The position numbers and the translations under genes were made by a program. Source: an uncultured Pelagibacteraceae bacterium (GTDB lineage Bacteria; Pseudomonadota; Alphaproteobacteria; Pelagibacterales; Pelagibacteraceae). From it: 36,798 bases of DNA. Shown piece by piece: positions 9,419 through 31,181 of this stretch. Under the pieces are notes generated by a model. It was not told where the DNA came from. It worked only from the letters and a program-made list of their open reading frames with translations, and searched no databases. The stretch is taken from assembly GCA_902519375.1 (NCBI GenBank), contig CABYJS010000010.1, positions 1-36,798 of the forward strand. Direction: 5' to 3'. How positions within the stretch are numbered: the stretch's first letter is position 1; each line of letters starts with the position of its first letter.

Positions 9419-10498
9419 ATGATAAAAAAATCAACTTCAAGACTGGATCTTAAACTTTTTAAAATTTTAGATCGTAAAATTCTTTGGCCATTTTATAAAA
9501 TTTTTTTTTGTTCTTTATTAATAGTTTCTTTTTTTTATCTAATGCCAATAATGATTAATTACTCAAAAAATAAAACTTTTGTTTTTAAAAATAACTCTAA
9601 AGAAATTTTGGCATATACATTAGAAAATGGTGGAGAAAATAAAGAAAACGAAGAGACTATTTTAGATGAAAATGATCTATTAAAAGATATTTTTAGTTTA
9701 AATGATCTAGAAACTGACACCGTGAGATTGAATGCCTCTACAATAAAACAATTGTTTGAGGATACAAATTATTCTTTAGAGGATGTTAGAGAGAAAAAAC
9801 TCGTTAAACCAGTAGCACTTACATTGCTTCCAGCAGAAATTAAAATGATTGAAAACACGAAAAAAAGAAAAGATTTTTTTATCCAGATTATTTTACCCCT
9901 TATTCTAAAAGAAAATAATAATATCCGATTAGATAGAAAAAGACTTTTTAGTATTATTAACAAAAGTAATAACACAAAATTAGAAAAAAAATGGCTTGAG
10001 AAAAAATATAAACAATATGGAATTCCATCAAAGGAGTTATCAATCTTAAAAATAAGAATGGATGAGATACCTGTTTCACTTGCAATTGCACAAGCAGCCA
10101 AAGAAACCGGATGGGGAACGTCAAGATTTGCTCAAGAGGGAAATGCATTATTTGGACAATGGACATGGTCAGGGGAGGGATTGAAGCCTAAAGATGCAGA
10201 TAAAAGTAAAGGACATAAAGTAATGAAGTTTAATGTTTTACAGGCCTCGGTAAGAGCCTATCAGCGGAATTTAAACACACATTCGTCTTATAAAAATTTG
10301 AGAAAGGCAAGAGCTGAATTGAGAGATAAAGGACTACCTTTAGATAGTTTGCTTTTAGTTAAATTTTTAGATCATTATGCCGAGACGGGCGAAAAATATG
10401 TAGAAGTTTTACAAAAAATTATAAAACAAAATAATTTAAAAGATTTTGATGATGCAAGACTACTTCCTTCCAGTATTAAATTAGAGAGTTTAATCTAG
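9419..10498 (+). CDS. Membrane-anchored glucosaminidase-family protein (Bax-like)
   Basis: The protein has 359 residues: one transmembrane segment near the N terminus (about 24-46), an acidic linker (about 60-150), and a glucosaminidase (LYZ2/Bax-like) domain in the C-terminal half. That domain shows AIAQAAKETGWGTSRFA-EGNALFGQWTW, with E229 as the likely catalytic acid. VRAYQRNLNTH and YAETGEKYVE follow. It probably cleaves the glycan backbone of peptidoglycan from the periplasmic side of the inner membrane. It begins immediately after the nfu stop and overlaps the convergent deacetylase gene by 4 bp, so two wall or glycan enzymes lie end to end. Confidence 0.87.
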   Translation: MIKKSTSRLDLKLFKILDRKILWPFYKIFFCSLLIVSFFYLMPIMINYSKNKTFVFKNNSKEILAYTLENGGENKENEETILDENDLLKDIFSLNDLETDTVRLNASTIKQLFEDTNYSLEDVREKKLVKPVALTLLPAEIKMIENTKKRKDFFIQIILPLILKENNNIRLDRKRLFSIINKSNNTKLEKKWLEKKYKQYGIPSKELSILKIRMDEIPVSLAIAQAAKETGWGTSRFAQEGNALFGQWTWSGEGLKPKDADKSKGHKVMKFNVLQASVRAYQRNLNTHSSYKNLRKARAELRDKGLPLDSLLLVKFLDHYAETGEKYVEVLQKIIKQNNLKDFDDARLLPSSIKLESLI

Positions 10499-11556
10499 TT
10501 TTTTTTTACTGTAAATTGTGTACCAAACCATCTCCATTTACCATTGTCATTTAGAGAACAGTTGATTCTACCTCTTCTTGGTAAAAATTTTGTTTCTAAA
10601 TTAATTGTTAAAGTTTGCTTTTGGAATTTTAGATCTGGTTTTTTCCATATTCCACCGTCATTGGAATAACAACTAATATTTTCAATATTTTTTTGCTCTG
10701 GAAAAAATTCGACAATAACTTTAGGAGGATTGTTCGTATTGTTTATCTTTTTTTCTTCAGGTTTTAAATTTTTATACTCCAGGGGCATATAATTTATTAA
10801 AGATTTAAATCTTTTTAAATCACCATATTTTTCATTGATTGGAAATCTTGGTAATTCAAATTTATCTTTATTGACATCAATGACACCTGAGTGTTGTCCA
10901 AATGCAACTTTAAAATTTTTTGAAATATATTCTTTCATATATTTAGAATACTCACCAAATGGATATGAAAAAATTTCAGGTACATACCCAAGTTTATCTT
11001 TAAAGATTTTGGATGCGACTTCAATATCATCGATAAAATTGGAGTTATTCATATCAATTAAATACTCGTGAGTATGAGAGTGATGACCAATAAAAGCAAA
11101 ATCAAACTTTTCTATCTCTTTTATTTCATTCCAATCCATATACCCATTCCTCCCAACAGGTTCTGTAGAAACAAAAAGAATAAATGGAATTTTATTTTCT
11201 TTTAAATATGGCCATGCTTCTTTGTAAAATGACTTGAAACCATCATCTATTGTAATTAAAATTTTTTTTTTATTTTTTGGAACATCAAACTGAGAAACAA
11301 AATTTTTAGGATCATAAAAAGTATAGTTTAAATCATTGATAATTTGAATTTGTTCCTTAAAAACTCCCATTCTAATGTTGGTTGATGGATATTTATTTTC
11401 ATTAAATCTGTGATACATAAGTGATAAAATTCCACTATCATTTGAAAAATATTTGCTATTATTTTCTACTGAATTAGAATTGGTCAAAAGTAAGATTTGC
11501 AAAATGACTAAACTTATAATCGATGCAACTAAAGATAAAATTTTTTTTATGATCAT
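10495..11556 (-). CDS. Exported polysaccharide deacetylase family protein
   Basis: The 353-residue protein has an N-terminal signal or anchor helix (about 4-25). A NodB-type deacetylase domain follows (about 42-260), with LMYHRF (46-51), the catalytic/metal motif TIDDG (102-106), the metal-binding H159-S-H-T-H163, and FSYPFGEYS (196-204). Residues after about 260 form an unrecognised C-terminal region that may be a beta-rich binding module. It likely removes N-acetyl groups from a cell-surface or wall glycan, but the substrate cannot be told from sequence. The 5' end overlaps the 5' end of divergent tsaB by 53 bp. The start codon is supported because the signal helix begins right there. Confidence 0.85.
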   Translation of the reverse strand: MIIKKILSLVASIISLVILQILLLTNSNSVENNSKYFSNDSGILSLMYHRFNENKYPSTNIRMGVFKEQIQIINDLNYTFYDPKNFVSQFDVPKNKKKILITIDDGFKSFYKEAWPYLKENKIPFILFVSTEPVGRNGYMDWNEIKEIEKFDFAFIGHHSHTHEYLIDMNNSNFIDDIEVASKIFKDKLGYVPEIFSYPFGEYSKYMKEYISKNFKVAFGQHSGVIDVNKDKFELPRFPINEKYGDLKRFKSLINYMPLEYKNLKPEEKKINNTNNPPKVIVEFFPEQKNIENISCYSNDGGIWKKPDLKFQKQTLTINLETKFLPRRGRINCSLNDNGKWRWFGTQFTVKKN

Positions 11557-11890
11557 TAATGATCATAATAATTATAATATTACATATGAAAATACTAAAT
11601 TTAATTATGAAAAAATGATAATCTTGGTAAATGACTTTTTAAATTCAAAAAATATTAAAATAAATGATATTTCAAAACTTTACGTCAACCAAGGTCCTGG
11701 CAGTTTTGCTGGTATTAGGAATGCTATTTCTACAATAAAAGCGATACATATTGTTAACAAAATTGATTATTATTGTTATAGTTTAAGTGATTTTATAGAT
11801 ACTGAAAATATCAAGTATGAAAATATTCCTGATTTATGTGACAAATTTGGAATCAAAAAGAATTTGATTAATCCTATTTATATAAGCTAA
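11504..11890 (+). CDS. tsaB: TsaB-like protein, unusually short (tRNA t6A biosynthesis)
   Basis: With the ATG at 11504 the protein has 128 residues, whereas TsaB is usually about 210-240. It keeps the N-terminal ASKHA lobe: LIIDAT (4-9), then the TsaB hallmark VNQGPGSFAGIRNAISTIKAI (61-81). The last residues, INPIYIS, resemble the usual TsaB ending (P-x-Y-l/v-r), so an internal region of roughly 90 residues seems to be missing rather than a tail. TsaB is the scaffold partner of TsaD in making threonylcarbamoyl-adenosine at position 37 of ANN-decoding tRNAs. The position before fur and miaB matches the alphaproteobacterial order, but the usual rimI is absent. A longer reading from 11453 is unlikely because it lacks TsaB homology. 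Confidence 0.8.
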   Translation: MTKLIIDATKDKIFFMIINDHNNYNITYENTKFNYEKMIILVNDFLNSKNIKINDISKLYVNQGPGSFAGIRNAISTIKAIHIVNKIDYYCYSLSDFIDTENIKYENIPDLCDKFGIKKNLINPIYIS

Positions 11891-11898
11891 AATTGATT

Positions 11899-12318
11899 AT
11901 GACAGAAACTATTGAACAAAAATGTTTAAAAAAAGGTGTTAAACTTACCGATCAAAGAAAAATAATAGCAGAGGTAATTTCTAAGTCCAAAGAATCATAT
12001 GGAGAGTCAGATCATCCTGATGTTGATGAATTATACAATAGAGTTTCAAAAATTGATCCAAAAATAAGTATTGCAACAGTATATAGAACTGTAAAACTTT
12101 TTGAAGAAGCGGGTATACTTGTTAAGCATGATTTCAAAGCAGGTAAAGCAAGATATGAAATTAATGATGATCATAATCATCTGATTGACATAAAGACTGG
12201 AGAAATAATTGAATTTGTAGATGAAGAAATTGAATTACTCCAAAAAAAAGTAGCCGAAAAATATGGATATGAATTAGTTGATCATAAACTAGAATTGTAT
12301 GGATATAGAAAAAAATAA
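11899..12318 (+). CDS. fur: Fur-family metal-responsive repressor (Fur/Mur type)
   Basis: The 139-residue protein starts at ATG 11899; a TTG two codons upstream is the alternative. The winged helix covers about 10-85, with the recognition helix IATVYRTVKLFEEAG (58-72). The dimerisation domain has DDHNHLIDIKTGEIIEF (90-106), whose His residues serve metal binding. The E. coli Fur zinc cysteines (C-x2-C after HLI) are replaced by D-I-K-T, as in alphaproteobacterial Fur/Mur proteins. Whether it senses iron or manganese cannot be decided from sequence. It lies 8 bp after tsaB. Candidate targets with Fur-like boxes lie at 31454-31505. Confidence 0.92.
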   Translation: MTETIEQKCLKKGVKLTDQRKIIAEVISKSKESYGESDHPDVDELYNRVSKIDPKISIATVYRTVKLFEEAGILVKHDFKAGKARYEINDDHNHLIDIKTGEIIEFVDEEIELLQKKVAEKYGYELVDHKLELYGYRKK

Positions 12319-27829: not shown

Positions 27830-28231
27830 ATGTTAAAATATATCGATAAATTAAGAAATTCTGGCTTAAGACCTACTAAACAAAGACTTCAAATATGTGA
27901 AGTTCTATTCGATACAGACAAAACTTTTCATTTTACGATTTATGAATTGGAAAAAAAAATCAAAAAACAGATAAATAATAGAATATCTTTAGCTACAGTT
28001 TATAACACTGTTCATGCATTTGAAAAAAAGGGATATTTAAAACAAATTCCTATAAATTCCAATCAAACTTATTTTGATACCAATGTTACTGATCATCACC
28101 ATTTTTACGATTTAAAAGATGAAAAATTAATTGACTTAGAAAATTGTGATGTTGGACCAATTAATATTTTAAAGAAGATAAATGGAAAAAAAATTAAATC
28201 TGTTGAGGTTCTAGTAAAGCTCGAAGATTAA
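27830..28231 (+). CDS. irr: Irr, iron/heme-responsive Fur-family regulator
   Basis: The 133-residue protein has the Fur winged helix with GLRPTKQR (12-19) and recognition helix SLATVYNTVHAFEKKGYL (53-70). The dimerisation part carries the Irr-type heme/metal motif DHHHFYD (88-94). It lacks the N-terminal GCPWH heme-regulatory motif of Bradyrhizobium Irr, like Irr of Rhizobium and Brucella. Irr senses heme supply and controls heme, iron and heme-enzyme genes. The position divergent from fabA and upstream of katG, with ICE-like boxes at both promoters, supports Irr over PerR, although a peroxide-sensing PerR-like role next to katG is the main alternative. Confidence 0.85.
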   Translation: MLKYIDKLRNSGLRPTKQRLQICEVLFDTDKTFHFTIYELEKKIKKQINNRISLATVYNTVHAFEKKGYLKQIPINSNQTYFDTNVTDHHHFYDLKDEKLIDLENCDVGPINILKKINGKKIKSVEVLVKLED

Positions 28232-28264
28232 ATAAATAATTTTTTTAGCGTCATTATTAACCAA

Positions 28265-28291
28265 TTGACACCTATTTAGAATCATTATAAA
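28265..28291 (+). promoter_or_regulatory. katG promoter with overlapping ICE-like operator
   Basis: A perfect TTGACA -35 (28265-28270) is followed after 15 bp by TATAAA (28286-28291). TTTAGAATCATTATAAA, a 17-bp inverted repeat with 7 of 8 arm positions paired, covers 28275-28291, filling the spacer and overlapping the -10. That is the classic place for a repressor. The same box occurs before irr. The ribosome site GGGGA lies at 28316-28320. Confidence 0.65.
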
Positions 28292-28325
28292 CTGAATAAA
28301 AGTAATTTAACCAATGGGGAACTAA

Positions 28326-30563
28326 ATGAGTACTGAAAATTTTAAAGATAAATCTTTTAAAGTAAAAGAATTAAGCAAATGTCCTTTCACAGGAGCAGGA
28401 ACTCCAGCAAAATTTTCAGCAGGTAGAGGTCAATCAGTTAGAGATTTTTGGCCGAATAGTCTCAATCTTAAAATTCTTAGTCAACATTCTAGATTGTCAA
28501 ATCCAATGGATAAAAAATTCAATTACGCTAAAGAATTTAAAAAGATTAATTATAAAGCTCTTAAAAAAGATTTAAAAAAGTTAATGACAGATTCTCAAGA
28601 ATGGTGGCCAGCTGATTATGGTCATTACGGACCTCTATTTATAAGATTAGCTTGGCATGCAGCTGGTACATACAGGACTGGTGATGGCAGAGGTGGAGCT
28701 GGAACAGGAAATCAAAGATTTGCCCCATTAAATTCTTGGCCAGACAATGTTAATTTAGATAAAGCAAGATTACTTTTGTGGCCAATTAAAAAGAAGTACG
28801 GAAAAAAAATTTCATGGGCAGATCTTTTTATTTTGGTAGGTAATGTTGCCCTAGATTCTATGGGATTTAAAACATTTGGTTTTGGTGCTGGAAGAACTGA
28901 TATTTGGGAACCAGAAGATGATATCTACTGGGGTTCAGAAAAAGAAATGCTAGGTGTAGATCGATATACTGACAAAAGAGATTTAGAACAACCTTTAGGC
29001 GCTTCACACATGGGTTTAATATATGTTAATCCTCAAGGTCCTGACGCTAATCCAGATCCAATGCTTGCAGCACACGATATTAGAGAGACTTTTGGAAGAA
29101 TGGCAATGAATGATTATGAAACTGCAGCATTAGTTGCAGGTGGGCATACTTTTGGAAAATCACATGGTGCTGCACCTGAGTCCCACAAAGGTCCTGATCC
29201 TGAGGCTTCAAGAATTCAAGACCAATCTACTGGCTGGAACAGTGGATATAAATCTGGGAAAGGTATTGACACAATTAGTAGCGGAATTGAAGGTGCTTGG
29301 ACTCAGAACCCAATTAAATGGGATATGGGTTATTTAGATTGCCTATACGGTCATGAGTGGGAACTTACTAAAAGCCCTGCAGGAGCACATCAATGGACAC
29401 CAAAAAAAAATGGACAAGAAATAAAAATGGTGCCAGATGCTCATGATAAGAATCTACTTCATCCACCAATGATGCAAACTACGGATATATCAATGAAGGT
29501 TGACCCAAGCTATGGTCCAATAACAAGACATTTCCATGAAAATCCAAAAGAATTTCATGATGCATTTGCAAGAGCATGGTTTAAATTAACTCACAGAGAT
29601 ATGGGTCCTAAGGCTTGTTATTTGGGTACAGATATTCCTAAAGAAGAGTTGATTTGGCAAGATCCAATAGATAAACCGAAGTATAAATTAAAAGCAAAAG
29701 ATATTAGTGAATTAAAAGCAAAAATTTCTAAATCAAAATTATCAGTTTCTGAGTTAGTATCAACTGCTTGGGCTTCAGCTTCTACTTTTAGAAGTTCTGA
29801 TAAAAGAGGAGGGGCTAACGGTGCAAGAATAATGCTAGAGCCACAAAAAAATTGGAAAGTTAATAATCCAGAGCAGCTCTCAAAAGTCATTAAATATTTA
29901 ACTAAAATAAAGGATAAGTTTGACAGCAAAAAGAAAAATGTTTCAATGGCAGATTTAATTGTTTTAGCAGGTGGAGTTGGTATTGAAATGGCAGCTAAGA
30001 AAGCTGGATATAAAATAAATGTACCATTCTCAGCTGGGAGAGGAGATGCTAGGCAAGATCAGACTGATATAAATTCTTTTGGCCTGTTGGAACCTCAAGC
30101 AGATGCTTTTAGAAATTATTTGAATGATGATAAATCTATTGTGTCGGCAGAAGAAAAACTAATAGATAAAGCTCAGTTAATGGGACTTACAGCGCCTGAA
30201 ATGACAGTGCTTTTAGGTGGAATGCGTGCTCTAGATACAAACTATAATAATTCTAAAGATGGTATTTTTACAAATAGGCCTGGAGTTTTAACAAATGATT
30301 ATTTTCTAAATTTACTTGATATGAATATAACATGGAAAGAAACAGATAAATCTGAACAAAAATTTGCTGGAACCAATCGAAAAACAAAAAAAACTAAATG
30401 GAAAGGTACAAGAGTTGATCTTATATTTGGTTCTAATTCTCAGCTTAGAGCTTTGGCTGAAGTTTATGCATGTGATGATTCTCAAGATAAATTTATCAGA
30501 GATTTTACTGCTGCATGGGTTAAAGTGATGAATGCAGATAGGTTTGATTTGAAATTGAATTAA
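28326..30563 (+). CDS. katG: Catalase-peroxidase KatG
   Basis: The 745-residue heme enzyme breaks down hydrogen peroxide by catalase and peroxidase reactions. It has the two-domain KatG architecture. Distal residues R107, W110 and H111 ([11 protein letters not shown]), proximal H274 ([11 protein letters not shown]), and the Trp-Tyr-Met adduct residues W110, Y233 ([10 protein letters not shown]) and M259 are all present, so it should be active. No signal peptide is seen, so it is cytosolic. It has its own promoter 35 bp upstream with an ICE-like box, right after irr. KatG is not expected in every streamlined marine genome, so its presence here may mark accessory content. An oxygenase gene follows 21 bp downstream. 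Confidence 0.97.
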
Positions 30564-30584: not shown

Positions 30585-31181
30585 ATGTCAACAACCGATT
30601 TTGAAGACTTTTATGAAGTACCAGGACTGAATTTTGATATTTTAAGATTACAATCTGAATTAAAAAAAATTTTAGAAAATAAAAAATTCAATTCTTCAGG
30701 GGTCACTCATTTTGGAGCAATTCCACTTAACCAAATTCCAAATGATGAAAATTCTATAAAAGGTAATAATATAAGAGGAAAATATTGGACTATTGCTGAC
30801 GATACGGGCAAAGAAGTTGCGAGGGACATTGATATAGATGAGTCAAAATATACTCAATTAGTTCCAGAATTTGAAAAAACTTATTTTAAAGAAGTTTTTG
30901 AGGTGTTAAGTAAAAAATTCAAATTAGGAAGAGTAAGATTATTACTTAAAGAGCCAAGATCGACTTTAAGTTGGCATAAAGACCCAGAATGTAGACTTCA
31001 TGTGCCAATTGTGACTAATAAAGGATGCTCTATGGTTATAGAAAATGTAGCTAAACATTTACCAGCCGATGGTAAAGTTTGGATTACAAATAATACAAAA
31101 TATCATAATTTTTTCAATGGAGGAGAGCAAGCAAGGGTTCATCTAGTTGCGTGCATTTTAGAAAGCCCTTTTAAAAAATAA
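30585..31181 (+). CDS. Aspartyl/asparaginyl beta-hydroxylase-like Fe(II) oxygenase
   Basis: The 198-residue protein has a C-terminal double-stranded beta-helix. Candidate iron ligands are H131-K-D133 (STLSWHKDPECRLHVPI) and H174 (TKYHNFFNGG), with R184 (EQARVHLVA) for 2-oxoglutarate. The pattern R-LLLKEPRSTLSWHKD...HVPIVTN fits the Asp/Asn hydroxylase cupin-like family, also carried by marine phages. The target is unknown. It sits 21 bp behind katG and 1 bp before the next gene, so it is probably co-transcribed with katG. Being iron-dependent, it fits an iron/peroxide group, but the functional link is inference. Confidence 0.8.
   Translation: MSTTDFEDFYEVPGLNFDILRLQSELKKILENKKFNSSGVTHFGAIPLNQIPNDENSIKGNNIRGKYWTIADDTGKEVARDIDIDESKYTQLVPEFEKTYFKEVFEVLSKKFKLGRVRLLLKEPRSTLSWHKDPECRLHVPIVTNKGCSMVIENVAKHLPADGKVWITNNTKYHNFFNGGEQARVHLVACILESPFKK

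Follow-up and report, generated by a model that had tools for sequence, protein, structure and literature searches.

SAR11 bacteria are abundant in the ocean, and one of their tsaB loci raises the question of how much of the TsaB protein is needed for t6A synthesis. The locus lies in a stretch of 36,798 nucleotides (hereafter the window) from a genome of 0.87 Mb in 39 contigs that is 75% complete (G000). The nearest named records of its sequence are Pelagibacteraceae, including Candidatus Pelagibacter ubique, that is, SAR11, and judged by these named relatives the genus of the window is Pelagibacter. A first-pass annotation had proposed a TsaB of about 128 residues with an internal deletion, which could be either a minimal working TsaB, in which only the TsaD-contact lobe is kept, or a decaying gene. 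TsaB is reported to be present in nearly all bacteria and to be essential (PMC4330362). From sequence and models, we consider it likely that the short gene encodes a minimal TsaB that still works, lacking lobe II and serving as a dimerisation subunit for TsaD, with a predicted role in t6A synthesis.

The gene and its missing lobe

The short, single-lobed tsaB occupies 11504-11890 on the forward strand (as do all features below unless stated otherwise), from the ATG at 11504 to the TAA at 11888-11890. Its frame of 128 aa is open throughout, and the assignment is based on TIGR03725 and PF00814 matches and on homologous frames in same-genus genomes. Residues 4-97 matched positions 2-96 of the 212 in the TIGR03725 (TsaB) profile with 48.2 bits (E 1.2e-12). 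This is less than the curated cut-off of 69.3, leaving the short protein below the whole-protein equivalog threshold; among full-length relatives, G311 passes it with 75.4 bits, and L135, which matches the profile from 2 to 211, also fails with 59.6 bits. The PF00814 match reached 27 bits (cut-off 24.8), and a sequence search also matched TsaB chains of known structure, among them those of T. maritima and E. coli. A frameshift as the cause of the length is ruled out by the open frame and its homologues in relatives. The inner TAG in the matches of G034 and G004 was considered as a frame break and likewise rejected, as these proteins simply terminate immediately past P-x-Y.

Lobe I (residues 1-97; 11504-11794) was delimited by the AlphaFold2 model and the TIGR03725 match, and is modelled with strands at residues 2-7, 12-18 and 23-29, helices at 32-36/38-48, a strand at 56-62, a helix at 68-85 and a strand at 88-92. 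Two of its helices are expected to face TsaD: alpha1 (residues 32-48; 11597-11647), from the model and the interface helices of solved complexes, and alpha2 (residues 68-85; 11705-11758), from the model and the hot spots compared with P. aeruginosa YeaZ (PMC11669939). The N-x-GPGSFAGIR loop (residues 62-72; 11687-11719) stands out by its pooled dN/dS, given below, and by N62, G64, P65, G66 and R72, which are invariant in the 48-row alignment A4. The deletion junction, or linker (residues 96-104; 11789-11815), was placed by alignments A2 and A3 and marks the loss of about 75-91 residues, lobe II among them. The terminal helix (residues 105-114; 11816-11845) follows, as seen in the alignment to L135 and G311, the models and the structural alignment to E. 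coli residue 219; by sequence and model, this helix is identified as the homologue of the final helix in full-length TsaB. P-x-Y (residues 124-126; 11873-11881), whose P124 and Y126 are invariant in alignments A1 and A4, lies next to the C-terminus, which reads NPIYIS. Among 29 other loci read, mostly of genus g8, P-x-Y is altered in two, L278 and L288, by replacement of P. The product retains the TsaB N-lobe with VNQGPGSFAGIR, the terminal helix and P-x-Y; the profile match, alignments and model agree with the first-pass annotation on the N-lobe and P-x-Y, as do the open frame and both kinds of alignment on a TsaB of 128 residues with an internal deletion.

The AlphaFold2 model of the short TsaB has a pLDDT of 91.3 and a pTM of 0.87, the last eight residues being the least certain. 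It shows one lobe and a terminal helix rather than a two-lobed actin-like fold. Rows 1-29 of the best 50 Foldseek rows are all TsaB. VIA-align placed 128 of 128 model residues on E. coli TsaB 1-219 (4wq4_C from a TsaD-TsaB crystal; Z 15.4, rmsd 2.9), and free TsaB chains score just under this TsaD-bound chain, so the fold matches bound and free TsaB alike. The model also aligns to residues 1-192 of T. maritima TsaB. The first non-TsaB chain in the structural alignment is a Kae1 (Z 13.6), and no Pcc1 chain appeared among the best 50 rows of either Foldseek or VIA-align. The L135 protein, by comparison, was modelled as a two-lobed TsaB (pLDDT 79.0, pTM 0.76; lobe II less certain), with 186 residues aligned to 4wq4_C (Z 15.2, rmsd 4.5).

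Because the 128 residues span E. coli TsaB 1-219, about 91 residues are absent internally, in addition to the last 12 residues of the E. coli protein. Lobe I and the tail can be aligned to the closest full-length SAR11 proteins, L135 (202 aa) and G311 (201 aa), relative to which the gap is about 73-77 residues. The earlier figure of about 90 lost residues therefore stands against E. coli TsaB but is too large against these relatives. Alignments A2 and A3 have the same layout, in which lobe I is followed by a gap of about 75 residues relative to L135 and G311 and then by the last helix with P-x-Y. As the whole short model aligns to E. coli TsaB 1-219, lobe II was taken out and the flanking ends were joined. 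In full-length TsaB, the actin-like chain runs from lobe I through lobe II to a last helix ending in P-x-Y; in Pelagibacter and two related genera (g8 and g9), lobe II was removed in frame, joining lobe I straight to the last helix. We regard it as extremely unlikely that the gene is split, with lobe II encoded elsewhere and assembling in trans, since a simple split would not yield a last helix and P-x-Y still fused to lobe I. At most two TIGR03725 matches per genome were seen among the matches listed, which is a weak argument because a separate lobe II would hardly be picked up by this profile. According to a commentary (PMC2954209), RNase H domains duplicated in tandem make up the ASKHA fold, and in YeaZ the distal domain is already truncated. 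This truncation trend is completed in these SAR11 genera. In one short TsaB of 147 aa (L124, 6001-6444), the deletion junction carries an insert of about 20 residues, so the linker tolerates insertions.

The downstream neighbour is fur (11899-12318), which served as a marker to tell an assembly gap from real absence. Orthology is supported by gene order, since tsaB immediately precedes fur both in the window and in the loci read from g5, g7, g8, g9, g10, g11 and the sister family f2; g6 was not placeable in this way, as no fur was found in G065. On the reverse strand, a polysaccharide deacetylase gene (10495-11556) overlaps the first 53 bases of tsaB with its 5' end, and it is also upstream of tsaB in the g7, g8, g9, g10 and f2 loci read. 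Between fur and miaB, the window has a gene for a putative 2OG-Fe(II) oxygenase (PF13759; 12299-12937). This gene is not at that position in the g5, g7, g8, g9, g10 and g11 loci read, and the f2 locus has a different gene there, acyltransferase-like by appearance. Elsewhere in the window, a second regulator of the Fur family is encoded immediately upstream of a catalase-peroxidase-like protein (PF00141; together 27830-30563), after which comes an aspartyl/asparaginyl hydroxylase-like protein (30585-31181).

Distribution of the short form and number of deletions

In the genus of the window, 31 of 37 genomes (its own included) match the short TsaB, 30 over almost the whole length and G018 over residues 1-101 only. 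All 31 copies found are short, as judged from the proteins read in 30 cases and from an open frame of 154 in G018. A profile search in 40 chosen genomes, 31 of which matched, found TsaB in 6 of 10 genomes of g1, 6 of 7 of g8 and 6 of 7 of g9, all short, and no match in the remaining genomes of these three genera; the four unmatched g1 genomes had been picked because the order survey had found nothing in them. The proteins of these three genera have about 122-147 aa, mostly 125-128. A further 46 genomes gave 42 matches; among the 43 g8 genomes in this set, 37 have the short form (open frames 127-160), two have copies cut by contig ends and four have no match. Named-record Pelagibacteraceae loci, which may overlap with the genome collection, encode 125-147 aa in 57 of 61 cases, the other four being the full-length L135, L116 and L148 (incomplete as read) and L123 (frame-broken). 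About 85 genomes in the collection carry an open short tsaB frame.

The idea that all SAR11 share the short form did not hold, since longer proteins occur in g5, g6, g7, g10, g11, L135 and the sister family. Their TsaB has 201 aa in G311 (g10), 186 aa in G293 (g6), 192 aa in G143 (g7) and 171 aa with a different ending in g5, and it is full-length in f2. The genome of L135, G423, encodes the full-length protein of 202 aa; 36 of 41 relatives of G423 matched, comprising 20 g8-like short copies, one partial copy, L135 and otherwise long f2-like frames. At the order level, 19 of 24 genomes matched, with open frames of 212-230. In a survey of the order, 391 of 397 genomes matched TIGR03725 at E <= 0.001 and 36 of 397 passed the cut-off, among the matches listed; lengths were not taken from this survey, as the profile also picks up TsaD weakly.

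No clean loss of TsaB was seen among the 23 genomes without a complete match, four of which were classed as lacking TsaB only because their TIGR03725 match was of TsaD strength. Twenty of them also had no orthologous fur; in the remaining three, fur is at a contig edge (G212, G375) or a long open frame without the GPG loop is in place (G329). G065 (g6) has TsaB yet no fur was found, so the absence of fur does not by itself establish an assembly gap. The fur-neighbourhood check left aside G014 and G219. The frame in G329 (g11; L221, 832-1446) lies at the place of TsaB, shows FFNCGIKNTILYRN where the GPG loop is lost and is open, giving 187 aa from its Met; this loss suggests that part of the family is under looser constraint. 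In G190 (g7, a single contig; L222, L212), the TsaB and TsaD frames are both interrupted, which suggests a fault of assembly rather than a biological state. A TsaB resembling that of the SAR11 sister family (L138, 626-1249) occurs on a contig labelled Polaribacter, which is thus probably mis-binned.

This diversity bears on whether SAR11 t6A synthesis is moving to a TsaD-only (Qri7-like) system while TsaB erodes piecewise. The varied shortened forms, from the 171 aa of g5 through G293 and G143 to the loss of the GPG loop in g11, would fit such a decay, and Mollicutes without TsaB or TsaE have been reported (PMC4014445). The lack of any clean loss among the 23 genomes and the open short frame in about 85 genomes argue against it, and together with the selection data below they make decay quite unlikely. 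A lone decaying copy in the window is ruled out by the short form in its relatives and by the selection on lobe I.

Outside SAR11, no comparable short TsaB was found in a class survey (72 alphaproteobacterial genomes) or a phylum survey (75 Pseudomonadota), which overlap and both include the genome of the window. TsaB rows were separated from TsaD rows by score and frame length, and the TsaB open frames in both surveys have at least 183 aa, apart from that of the window, G496 (cut by a contig end) and G579 (interrupted frame). The shortest intact frame outside SAR11, of 183 aa, belongs to G482, a genome of 0.6 Mb. In the class survey, a TsaB row was missing for four genomes, two of which (G484, G513) gave no match at all and the other two (G472, G475) only a TsaD-length row.

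The position of the full-length L135 bears on how many deletions are needed. In a tree of seven flanking genes (34 rows; SH-aLRT only), L135 is sister to g8, with g9 outside and g1 apart, and a tree of ten flanking genes (13 rows) places it identically, with support of 100/100 at these forks. Parsimony on the flanking-gene tree needs three changes. With the ten genes (model LG+G4; tested clades chosen after the first tree had been seen), forcing all short rows into one clade was 403 log-likelihood units worse (AU p 1e-66), and forcing short g8 and g9 together without L135 was 137 units worse (p 2e-52). Since L135 sits among short clades, lobe II was probably excised three times, and at least twice; independent excisions near one junction thus probably number at least two and most simply three. 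The full-length state rests on one genome each for L135 (G423, 0.6 Mb) and for g10 (G311).

Alternatively, a single ancestral deletion could have been followed by regain of lobe II through recombination in L135, or the L135 assembly could be chimeric. The junction lies at nearly one place in g1, g8 and g9, and full length inside the short clades is known from the single genome of L135, both of which would suit a single event. On the other hand, the TsaB tree from shared columns groups L135 with g8 and g9 (82/94) and sets the g1 proteins apart (93/93), giving no sign of import from afar, and the likelihood costs just given count against it as well. We therefore judge regain or chimerism unlikely. 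We hold, with moderate confidence, that SAR11 excised a whole lobe of an actin-fold (ASKHA) protein three times independently, near one junction, leaving a functional single-lobed member.

Selection, partner genes and the TsaD interface

Measuring dN/dS had been proposed as a check on decay. Short tsaB (n=55 genes) evolves under purifying selection, with a median dN/dS of 0.26 (1063 pairs with dS < 1.2). This is about 2-4 times the values of fur (0.07), miaB (0.125), nifU (0.136) and trpS (0.094) on common pairs, a difference that decay would predict. Nevertheless, the ratio is far under 1, and pooled values by region are 0.060 for the GPG region (residues 60-75), 0.29 for lobe I, 0.31 for the tail and 0.46, the highest among the regions measured, for the linker (residues 96-107). 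In full-length sister-family tsaB (n=30 genes, 161 pairs), the corresponding values are 0.28 for lobe I, 0.59 for lobe II and 0.59 for the last 28 residues. Lobe I is thus no more relaxed in the short form than in full-length relatives, lobe II is the looser half of the full-length protein, and the short form has the more constrained tail. The last tsaB codons, 11 bases before the fur start, show fewer synonymous differences, so the tail conservation could be partly at the nucleotide level; P-x-Y is kept in full-length relatives too. A decaying gene, as the first-pass annotation had considered it, is not what we found: near relatives are short too, lobe I is no more relaxed than that of full-length relatives, and no frameshift interrupts the frame. 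Nor is this a relaxed copy beside full-length relatives, the same-genus copies found all being short.

The partner genes, which the annotation had suggested looking for, are largely present. TsaC/Sua5 exceeded the cut-off in 31 of 31 genomes checked, TsaE in 30 of 31 and TsaD in 28 of 30 (all but G081 and G023). The genome of the window, at 75% completeness, has TsaD (403.8 bits) and TsaC/Sua5, and no TsaE over the cut-off. Pelagibacteraceae (f1) have long Sua5-type PF01300 frames, mostly of 311-334 aa (249 in G415), and the sister family f2 has short TsaC-type frames of 210-246 aa; this swap tracks family and not the short TsaB.

In solved complexes, TsaD is bound by alpha1 and alpha2 of TsaB (PMC11648230), helices that also form the YeaZ dimer (PMC3157347). 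In T. maritima, a TsaB-TsaB dimer of a second type involves both lobes (PMC3157347), and the E. coli proteins are described as working as a TsaD-TsaB heterodimer (PMC11648230). The C-terminal tail of TsaB is reported to reach over the interface onto TsaD (PMC9654439), and the C-terminal segment of S. aureus TsaD to be required for YeaZ binding (PMC3098269), a requirement that does not say which TsaB lobe is contacted. E. coli YeaZ 1-219 binds TsaD slightly tighter than the intact protein does and remains able to assemble the ternary complex, and the R118A variant of YeaZ has full activity (PMC4330362). Across 60 proteins (L135 counted), the alpha2 hot spots R+5, R+9 and R+11 are mostly hydrophobic, and R+1, an Ile in P. 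aeruginosa, is Asn in 54. No TsaD column separated 14 sequences with short TsaB from 9 of longer-TsaB lineages (g5, g11 and g12 left out), so no compensating change in TsaD was seen. TsaD reads GPGL[ILVM][VI]CL in 23 f1 genomes and GPGLLGGL in four f2 genomes, at a site adjoining the helix expected to face TsaB.

The short TsaB might instead have another job, for example regulating TsaD or an unrelated partner, and be dispensable for t6A synthesis. Besides lobe II, it has lost the C-terminal tail, which in thermophilic species touches TsaE or tRNA (PMC11648230), and the lack of a compensating change in TsaD is compatible with this reading. In T. maritima, deletion of Leu189-Gly206 is reported to cause complete tRNA dissociation (PMC11648230); the short SAR11 proteins are without most of the equivalent stretch and have no tail past P-x-Y. 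However, the GPG loop is conserved, R+5, R+9 and R+11 remain mostly hydrophobic, the fold matches that of bound and free TsaB alike, and the gene co-occurs with those for TsaD, TsaC and TsaE. We consider another job very unlikely.

A minimal TsaB is favoured by the clade-wide short form, purifying selection, the confident fold, the retained TsaD-facing helices and the presence of partner genes. The proposal of a minimal form holding only the TsaD-contact lobe needs one amendment, as the final helix and P-x-Y are kept too. The remnant would pack on TsaD through alpha1 and alpha2, with the P-x-Y end, and would provide the dimerisation subunit on which TsaD depends in making t6A, TsaE and TsaC acting in their usual roles. 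The single-lobed TsaB is real and clade-wide; it is very probably functional, and we infer its TsaD binding and activity.

Significance and comparison with known systems

Among the matches listed from literature on t6A, TsaB/YeaZ and SAR11 streamlining, with few subscription papers covered, we found no earlier report of a short TsaB in SAR11. A natural TsaB devoid of lobe II, conserved across SAR11 and arisen more than once, shows which parts cannot be spared and gives biochemists a minimal protein ready for use. It may escape automatic annotation, as few genomes of the order pass the equivalog cut-off. If our reading is true, bacteria can make t6A without lobe II of TsaB, and all that is universally needed would be a helical-bundle clamp on the N-lobe of TsaD, as provided by Pcc1 in archaea and eukaryotes.

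The short protein shares with TsaB/YeaZ (TIGR03725) the fold of lobe I, the GPGSFxGIR loop, the interface helices, the P-x-Y end and the place upstream of fur. It differs in being single-lobed, with neither lobe II (about 75-91 residues) nor the tail beyond P-x-Y, and in scoring below the TIGR03725 cut-off. Pcc1/LAGE3 of KEOPS is similarly a small subunit, described as pairing with Kae1 through the helical-bundle surface that TsaD uses for TsaB, but it is reported to be unrelated to YeaZ (PMC4330362), and its likeness to the short TsaB is drawn from descriptions. In the Qri7/OSGEPL1 homodimer, a TsaD-type lobe I likewise acts as the dimerisation partner (PMC4330362), although the partner there is a second full-length catalytic subunit. 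The truncation construct E. coli YeaZ 1-219 ends at the very residue where the Pelagibacter C-terminus aligns, but keeps the lobe II that the SAR11 protein has shed.
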